Assembly: GCF_021021415.1 (NCBI RefSeq)
Contig: NZ_JAINWJ010000009.1
Coordinates: forward strand, 1-64,000
DNA: 64,000 nucleotides
Direction: 5' to 3'
Origin: Martelella mediterranea
GTDB lineage: Bacteria > Pseudomonadota > Alphaproteobacteria > Rhizobiales > Rhizobiaceae
Part shown: in pieces, positions 342 through 1,551 of the stretch
How the letters are laid out: every line of letters begins with the position of its first letter
Numbering within the stretch: position 1 is the stretch's first letter
Translations under genes and position numbers: made by a program
The notes under the pieces: model-generated
What the model saw: the letters and a program-made list of their open reading frames with translations, nothing else
Told to the model about the DNA's origin: nothing
Databases searched by the model: none

Positions 342-611
342 AACGATTTCCTTTCAAATCGTGCGTTCAAAGATCACATGATCTACATCATGCATTTGCT
401 CGACTTTGATAGAAGATCGTTCTGGGCGCTTTCGCGCAGACGTAACTTAACAAACAAATTCGATAGCCGCTTTGTTACGCGACATTGGCGCGCTGGGCAA
501 TACGCTAATTTTCTAAATTTTGGTACGGTTGACGCGATGAGCGCGGTGGAAACACCGGCGCCTGCCGGTTCGCGCGCGCGAAGAAGGCGCATTCGTTCGG
601 CCCAAAAAGAA
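342..611. other. Intergenic region upstream of the cold-shock gene
   Basis: No convincing gene. It should hold the minus-strand promoter and 5' leader of the cold-shock gene; csp mRNAs commonly have long structured leaders. The part near 380-500 is more AT-rich than its surroundings, but I could not assign a clear -35/-10 pair. Short ORFs here lack ribosome binding sites and family resemblance. Confidence 0.4.
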
Positions 612-643
612 CGCCCCCTGCCCGGGAGGATGGGCAGAGGGCG
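612..643 (-). terminator. Terminator with a CCUCC-containing loop, after the first DUF1127 gene
   Basis: Read on the minus strand, a 12-bp stem (one mismatch; plus-strand arms 612-623 and 632-643) closes the loop ATCCTCCC and is followed by TTCTTTTT. It lies about 50 nt past the DUF1127 stop codon, so it is very likely that gene's terminator. The loop carries the same anti-Shine-Dalgarno-like CCUCC motif seen in the hairpins after the second DUF1127 gene. Confidence 0.75.
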
Positions 644-690
644 TATGGGAAAAATGTGCCGCCGGCATTGGGCGGCTGAACCGCTATCGC

Positions 691-834: not shown

Positions 835-1030
835 GTCTATCTCCCTTCGTTTGAAGGTTTCTGGCGTCGCATTCCTTGCGGCGCATCCCTGTCTTTCGAC
901 AATTCCGATATAGGCGTTTCAACGGGTGCCTGGCAGATAGGCAAAAGCAACAGTCCTATGCACTGAACGCAAGGCTTGAGATTTCCGGTACGGAAGAAGG
1001 GGGCGGATCGGTCATGACGCTGCCATCAAG
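835..1030. other. Intergenic region between the DUF1127 genes
   Basis: No gene seen. It should contain the promoter and leader of the first DUF1127 gene (minus strand); CTATAT at 908-913 on that strand is the only -10-like element I can point to. The right edge abuts the poly-A/T tail of the terminator of the second DUF1127 transcript. Confidence 0.4.
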
Positions 1031-1158
1031 ACAAAAAAATAACGCTCACCGGGGGAGGAGGATCCGGTGAGCGTCATTTTGGTTGGCCGGTGATTTGGGA
1101 GGAGGAGGAGGATCACCGACCTATCGAGGGGCATTTGGGAGGAGGAGGAGGATGCCCC
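1031..1158 (-). ncRNA. Three tandem hairpins with anti-Shine-Dalgarno loops (CcsR/Cuckoo-like sRNA region)
   Basis: Read on the minus strand, three consecutive stem-loops follow the second DUF1127 gene. The first has a GGGGCAT/ATGCCCC stem (plus arms 1152-1158 and 1128-1134). The second has a CGGTGAT/ATCACCG stem (1112-1118 and 1088-1094). Both enclose the identical 17-nt loop CCTCCTCCTCCTCCCAA. The third has an 11-bp stem (1064-1074 and 1042-1052), the loop ATCCTCCTCCC and a T-rich tail, and acts as terminator. CUCCUCCC loops downstream of a DUF1127 gene are the hallmark of the CcsR RNAs of Rhodobacter and Cuckoo-type RNAs of Rhizobiales. Processing into separate sRNAs is inferred. Confidence 0.8.
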
Positions 1159-1180
1159 ACGAATTCCGAATTTTGTCGTG

Positions 1181-1330
1181 TCAGAAGGAAGCCTTGCGGG
1201 CAACCCGACGGATGTCCTGACGGCTGATGCCGAGATCGGAGAGCTCGCGGGTCGACATGCGGTCAAGCTCGGCAACAGTCTGGCGGTACTTCATCCAGTT
1301 GTTGAAAGTGCGCGTAACACCCATTGTCAT
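1181..1330 (-). CDS. DUF1127 microprotein (second copy)
   Basis: A 49-residue protein beginning MTMGVTRTFN. It is clearly paralogous to the first copy: WMKYRQTVAELDRMSTRELSDLG corresponds to the same core, in two parts WMKYRQTVAEL and RELSDLGISRQDIRR. GGAG lies only 2 nt before the first ATG but about 7 nt before the second one (1324), so translation may really start there, giving 47 residues. It is followed by the three CCUCC-loop hairpins and is probably their host transcript, the CcaF1/CcsR arrangement known from Rhodobacter. TTATAT at 1385-1390 (minus strand) is a candidate -10. Confidence 0.9.
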   Translation of the reverse strand: MTMGVTRTFNNWMKYRQTVAELDRMSTRELSDLGISRQDIRRVARKASF

Positions 1331-1551
1331 TCTCCTTCGTTCGGCAGCGTCTGATTGACGCTCATCAATTCGTCTTGACCCGGGATATAATCGATTGATC
1401 CAAACGCGAACAGAGACGTTTGAGCATTGCGCCTATGCAAAAAACGCAGGGCTCCGAAATGGGAGCAGAAAACTGCCCCGCACGGAAGCTGAGAGCCAGC
1501 GGCGTGGGCGTTGCACGGCCTTTGTCGAAAGGTACAATAAGAAGAAGTGAC

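Follow-up and report, generated by a model that had tools for sequence, protein, structure and literature searches.

Two DUF1127 genes lie in tandem on the minus strand within the first 1.4 kb of the window (the whole 64-kb stretch of Martelella mediterranea DNA analysed here), and both score above the Pfam cut-off (Table 1). The nearest named relatives of the first DUF1127 protein likewise come from Martelella (M. limonii, 96% identity). Its stop codon is followed, after a gap of 13 nt, by an RNA of three hairpins. Beyond the second gene, the minus-strand segment 68-387 holds a cold-shock protein gene at 132-341 and a strong hairpin at 71-107, and gives a match to the cspA thermoregulator that stays below cut-off (49.5 of 78 bits).

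Table 1. Features of the two DUF1127 genes and their surroundings, in coordinates of the window
Feature	Position	Strand	Basis or remark
LsrB-type box TGCGTTTTTTGCAT	1435..1448	minus	TGCR-N6-GCAT; one base from the published TGCA-N6-GCAT
Putative -10 element TTATATC	1384..1390	minus	TATA begins 45 nt past the box; no consensus -35
DUF1127 microprotein, 49 aa	1181..1330	minus	PF06568, 61 bits
ar14 (NfeR1/cuckoo) sRNA, three anti-SD hairpins	1037..1167	minus	RF02344 match, model 1-123 of 123
Hairpin 1, 17-nt loop 1135-1151	1124..1162	minus	RNA fold; covariation
Hairpin 2, 17-nt loop 1095-1111	1085..1121	minus	RNA fold; covariation
Hairpin 3, intrinsic terminator, loop 1053-1063	1036..1080	minus	RNA fold; orthologue conservation
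Second LsrB-type box TGCGTTCAGTGCAT	958..971	minus	Box before second DUF1127 in 11/11 orthologous loci
Second DUF1127 microprotein, 47 aa	691..834	minus	PF06568, 55 bits
Single terminator hairpin behind second DUF1127, loop AUCCUCCC	611..644	minus	Fold

Folding of the RNA, computed on 1034-1180 of the minus strand, returns the three hairpins that the earlier note had described behind the DUF1127 stop codon, with loops and coordinates exactly as given there, and also bears out its observation that one 17-nt loop is carried on two unlike stems: loops 1 and 2 both read CCUCCUCCUCCUCCCAA. Loop 3 reads AUCCUCCUCCC, and its hairpin leads into a run of seven T (1033-1039). The folding energy of the whole region has a z of -8.02, with none of 200 shuffles equally low, and hairpins 2 and 3 taken singly reach z values of -4.80 and -8.85. 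Hairpin 1 taken singly has a z of only -1.32, and 23 of 200 shuffles fold equally low.

Along its full length, the RNA scores 84.2 bits against the Rfam family ar14 (RF02344), for which the cut-off is 58.8. This family comprises the NfeR1, SmelA075 and cuckoo sRNAs with their anti-Shine-Dalgarno (anti-SD) loops, and the arrangement by which ar14/cuckoo RNAs are recognized, adjacent hairpins with CCUCCUCCC loops on variable stems, is present here in three hairpins. The CcsR1 model (RF02791) gives 26.1 bits, below its cut-off of 65.3. We conclude with high confidence that the hairpins form one RNA of the known ar14 family and not a new kind of RNA, and the proposal of a cuckoo-type anti-SD RNA beside a DUF1127 gene is thereby confirmed by a full-length family member above cut-off. 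The likeness to the ar14/NfeR1 family extends to the presence of several copies per genome and to an upstream box that resembles the published LsrB site with one base changed, but NfeR1 of S. meliloti lies directly behind its promoter, whereas the Martelella RNA lies behind a DUF1127 ORF. The same genome encodes two copies of the AbcR1/2 sRNAs (ar15, RF02345), which differ from ar14 in Rfam family; AbcR sRNAs are reported to use anti-SD motifs as well (PMC8844928).

Comparison of 11 orthologues indicates which parts of this structure are maintained. CCTCC is present in 33 of 33 loops and CCTCCTCCC in 32 of 33, counts that are not independent trials because the orthologues share descent, and loop 1 has TCCTCCTCCTCCC as its invariant part, loop 2 CTCCTCCTCCC. 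The earlier note argued that identical loops on different stems betray selection on the loop. The CCTCC core is kept throughout, but exact identity of the 17-nt loops 1 and 2 is not conserved, being seen in 2 of the 11 orthologues (this genome and G007), so that long loops of identical sequence are peculiar to those two genomes in this comparison. In the orthologue alignment, which contains 9 distinct rows, 11 of 37 pairs have changed on both sides, as many as in none of 500 shuffles, and slid controls give 0 to 3. Paired cells amount to 96.1% of the alignment, compared with 91.9 in shuffles, while further pair types (15) are no more numerous than in shuffles (14.8). Hairpin 3 is invariant at 29 of its 34 stem columns. 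These patterns support selection that would act both on the loops and on pairing.

The same comparison bears on whether the hairpins are merely a strong terminator in which the CCU repeats are incidental. Hairpin 3, with its T run, is indeed a terminator, and hairpin 1 lacks significant stability of its own, as such an explanation would have it, yet CCTCC is retained in every orthologous loop while the stems covary, and CCTCCTCCC is rare genome-wide and concentrated in ar14-type loci; a terminator and nothing more is highly improbable. The 5.4-Mb genome contains 49 occurrences of CCTCCTCCC on both strands (73 for the reversed-pattern control), 11 of them within four ar14-type loci, namely three ar14 copies and a two-hairpin RNA on contig C44. 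Each of the 11 sits in a loop whose closing stem runs for 6 or more pairs without a break, G-U pairs included; among the other 38, such stems occur in 7, and stems of 7 or more pairs in 4. The RNA on C44 (a 26.6-kb contig), at C44:7612-7696 (L004:1501-1585), is a stand-alone two-hairpin anti-SD RNA that scores 45.7 bits against ar14 and has TGCATTGACCGCAT upstream.

Across the 11 orthologous loci, hairpin 1 carries three CCU units in nine and four in two; hairpin 2 carries two, three and four units in one, six and four loci, respectively; and the terminator loop carries two in ten and one in one. Loops 1 and 2 have (CCU)4 at this locus, whereas (CCU)2 is found in 32 and 37, respectively, of 45 copies elsewhere in the order. 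The suggestion of a local version with a longer repeat thus stands as regards the longer (CCU)n at this locus, but the difference is a modest, genus-level trait, with 3-4 and 2-4 units in the two loops of the orthologous loci. Duplex energies were computed for the 17-nt loop and for a (CCU)2 loop with its own flanking bases at four perfect-match ribosome sites. The 17-nt loop pairs more strongly at the genes for a LuxR-type regulator (-25.8 versus -21.2 kcal/mol) and an IclR-type regulator (-23.7 versus -21.2 kcal/mol), equally at phaR (-20.1 kcal/mol for both loops) and more weakly at the gene for an ABC binding protein (-23.6 versus -25.3 kcal/mol), so stronger binding by longer loops was rejected as a rule.

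Candidate targets with a perfect GGGAGGAGG at the start encode PhaR, a sugar ABC binding protein, a LuxR-type response regulator and an IclR-type regulator; the four were hand-picked from a list that includes many ORFs that are possibly not genes. GGGAGGA at 4-9 nt before ATG has 162 matches in the genome (some sites counted twice) versus 6 for the reversed control, and such sites are too common to permit a specific genome-wide target prediction. The gene ntrB, a target of NfeR1 in S. meliloti, was considered as a conserved target and rejected: its presumed start, placed by its position ahead of ntrC, reads AAAGGAAAGCGGCATG, without GGAGG. Plasmid records were also searched and gave no match.

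In all 13 Martelella genomes ar14 is present above cut-off, in 40 copies (three in twelve genomes, four in one) from which 13 of 53 matches under the family cut-off are excluded. Every one of the 40 is flanked by a DUF1127 ORF, which lies upstream in 27 and only downstream in 13. Eleven copies have the DUF1127-ar14-DUF1127 arrangement of this locus, 16 have DUF1127 upstream only, and the 13 with none upstream all have a downstream DUF1127 ORF within the 700 nt scanned. Where DUF1127 lies upstream, the gap from stop codon to RNA is 1-37 nt in 26 of 27 copies and 122 nt in one copy of genome G010. At that copy (L060), about 100 extra bases with the look of an inverted repeat, perhaps an inserted repeat element, separate the DUF1127 stop from ar14.

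Across the order, 19 of 120 sampled genomes are above the ar14 cut-off under stricter filters. Among 45 copies from 18 other genomes (20 sub-cut-off matches and 3 own-genome copies are left out), 29 have DUF1127 within 450 nt upstream, as scored with a custom profile of own-genome and Martelella proteins, with tandem ar14 copies sharing one DUF1127 gene. The linkage of DUF1127 to anti-SD RNAs is itself already described: in the CIN1 locus, anti-SD hairpin RNAs adjoin a short DUF1127 gene (PMC10253847), a layout that is present here too. Genome G001 also contains tandem units of about 445 bp, each with DUF1127 and two anti-SD hairpins, at L072:25-1021 and L073:173-280 (contigs C54 and C48); three stand in a row at one contig end and one near another, and they score 47-50 bits against ar14, below cut-off.

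Similar regularity is seen upstream. In S. meliloti, LsrB binds TGCA-N6-GCAT in PnfeR1 (PMC10746234, section 5). The pattern TGCR-N6-GCAT occurs upstream of all 40 Martelella ar14 copies, with or without an intervening DUF1127 ORF, and takes the form TGCG-N6-GCAT at this locus; five matches fall within the window on both strands, two of which precede the two DUF1127 genes. The first TATA-like match comes 44-45 nt after the box in 36 of 40 copies; of the remaining four, three are stand-alone copies in which an earlier TATA was caught, and one, of the DUF1127-ar14-DUF1127 type, has none. Box and TATA at 40-48 nt occur together in 39 of 40 copies, as against 0 of 40 in the downstream control and 1 of 2000 mononucleotide shuffles, the corresponding control figures for the box alone being 8 of 40 and 30 of 2000. 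Among the 45 copies from outside the genus, 16 have the box upstream when it is scored without TATA (control 2 of 45) and only 2 have it at the TATA spacing, which counts against an LsrB-type unit. Sixty-six distinct DUF1127 ORFs were compared at Martelella loci, after ORFs that agreed in their last 35 residues and in the 60 nt immediately downstream had been collapsed as repeats and ORFs with less than 200 nt downstream left out. Box and TATA precede 51 of the 52 ORFs of the RSFNNW kind, among which one RSLSNW ORF (L063) is counted, and none of the 14 others.

Scanned strictly for sigma-70 promoters, 580-1500 yields no consensus match, at neither DUF1127 gene; this counts against the proposed unit, though it would fit an activator-dependent promoter. 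The published Brucella VtlR motif CAATGCAGCCATGCA fits this promoter at 11 of 15 positions, with 13 of 200 shuffles as good. A genome-wide search with a box pattern gives 16 matches versus 1 in the control, and two of these are DUF1127-ar14 promoters (this locus and one on contig C41); the pattern does not catch the second DUF1127 box or the stand-alone copy on C52. As for the regulator, a LysR gene adjoins two tandem AbcR (ar15) RNAs in this genome, and its protein matches chain 9HH1, LsrB of A. tumefaciens, at 600 bits over 298 of 298 residues. Judged by this match, an LsrB orthologue is present. In Brucella, DUF1127 genes are under positive control by VtlR (PMC12595884), and atu1667, a homologue of BAB2_0512, is among three promoters bound by VtlR in Agrobacterium (PMC7486931). 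The VtlR/LsrB regulon thus has the same kinds of targets, AbcR sRNAs and DUF1127 small proteins in Brucella and Agrobacterium and NfeR1 in S. meliloti, together with a similar box and, here, an LsrB orthologue beside the AbcR genes. It differs in Martelella in that DUF1127 and ar14 belong to one presumed unit and that the regulator is assigned from sequence. DUF1127 and ar14 probably answer to the same LsrB-type regulator, and we hold with moderate confidence that LsrB would control the putative box.

The ar14 RNA could instead be made from a promoter of its own inside the DUF1127 ORF, in which case the linkage would be mere synteny. In S. meliloti, NfeR1 is transcribed from a promoter of its own as an RNA of 123 nt (PMC10746234), and 13 of the 40 Martelella copies stand alone behind the box. 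However, in none of the 27 copies that follow a DUF1127 ORF do the 190 nt ahead of the RNA contain a box, and the short distance from the stop codon, kept here and in all of those copies except that of G010, likewise argues against this origin. The lack of a consensus sigma-70 promoter in 580-1500 points the same way but weakly, as the scan misses the DUF1127 promoters too. An independent promoter therefore appears unlikely.

The second DUF1127 gene would repeat the plan of the first with its own box and one loop. CCTCCC is found in the terminator loop behind this gene at 9 of 11 loci and, as read from the sequences, immediately ahead of the terminator at the other 2; the single hairpin scores 25 bits against ar14, below the family cut-off. 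Conceivably, DUF1127 of the RSFNNW kind and anti-SD hairpins constitute a modular LsrB/VtlR unit whose number of hairpins changes in evolution (0, 1, 2, 3), and the terminator at 611-644 might then be a minimal one-loop anti-SD regulator, a reading that we put forward as a tentative one. If the reading is true, a one-loop terminator regulator has fewer hairpins than the form with two that PMC3927594 describes (section 2.7). Of the 52 RSFNNW-type genes, 12 have a box but no CCTCC-loop hairpin behind them, in a set whose loci were mostly fetched for ar14, so that hairpin counts are biased upward; these 12 count against the reading of the locus as one LsrB-driven DUF1127-ar14 unit. Hairpins of this sort are also seen in other settings. 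At L046 and L057 (genomes G011 and G001), a hairpin with a CCUCCCUGC loop stands at the end of DUF1127 genes that are not of the RSFNNW kind, and no LsrB-type box with TATA was found for them within the 420 nt scanned. At L071, L074, L077 and L079 (G012, G009, G010 and G005), CUCCC/CCUCC hairpins with C/U-rich loops lie directly behind a gene that we take, from its C-terminal residues, to resemble an outer-membrane porin of the Omp25 kind.

For the microprotein, the ccaF1-CcsR1-4 operon of R. sphaeroides (CIN1) offers a comparison, as it too combines a small DUF1127 gene, anti-SD hairpin RNAs and a terminator. CcaF1 has 71 aa as opposed to 49 aa in Martelella, and an RpoHI/RpoHII promoter is reported for the operon (PMC10253847), whereas the Martelella locus has an LsrB-type box 44-45 nt before TATA; the sub-cut-off score with the CcsR1 model is a further difference. 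By analogy, the DUF1127 protein might bind the hairpin precursor and steer its maturation by RNase E. The order of DUF1127 followed by anti-SD hairpins matches ccaF1-CcsR (PMC10253847) and recurs in the 27 Martelella copies with DUF1127 upstream, but in the other 13 no DUF1127 intervenes between promoter and RNA. RNA binding is reported for Rhodobacter CcaF1 and was not found for Salmonella YjiS, and DUF1127 proteins of Agrobacterium act on PhoR by protein contact (PMC12501420). A Rhodobacter-like module is accordingly possible but doubtful, and confidence in RNA processing by the Martelella microprotein is low.

Overall, we consider it likely that the locus is one LsrB-type unit, composed of a promoter, a DUF1127 ORF and an ar14 RNA with its terminator, that acts through anti-SD silencing. 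Its observed elements are the family membership of the RNA, the structure with compensatory changes, the DUF1127 linkage, the box at a fixed distance from TATA and the LsrB orthologue. LsrB/VtlR would activate a transcript from the LsrB-type promoter, and this transcript, on which ar14 is presumably carried along, would be translated into the DUF1127 microprotein. Its 3′ part, from 13 nt past the stop, would probably be cut out as a 3′-UTR-derived sRNA, an origin suggested by the stretch from the DUF1127 start to the RNA, in which neither a box nor a consensus promoter was found. The three CCUCCU loops could then pair redundantly with the AGGAGG-rich ribosome binding sites of predicted targets and block translation. 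NfeR1 uses its redundant anti-SD loops to silence mRNAs (PMC10746234, PMC7143759), and by this precedent the loops should occlude ribosome binding sites here as well. Only one of the six S. meliloti NfeR1 copies was reliably detected (PMC7143759), and so this Martelella copy may be silent.

The published parts of this scheme come from different bacteria: LsrB with NfeR1, VtlR with DUF1127 proteins, and DUF1127 beside cuckoo RNAs. Within the accessible portions of the open-licence literature, we found no account that joins the three. In Martelella all three come together in what is presumed to be a single transcription unit, whose promoter layout is conserved. The contribution is a useful one at the level of regulon wiring, as this arrangement makes it directly testable whether one LsrB signal gives rise to both the microprotein and the anti-SD RNA.
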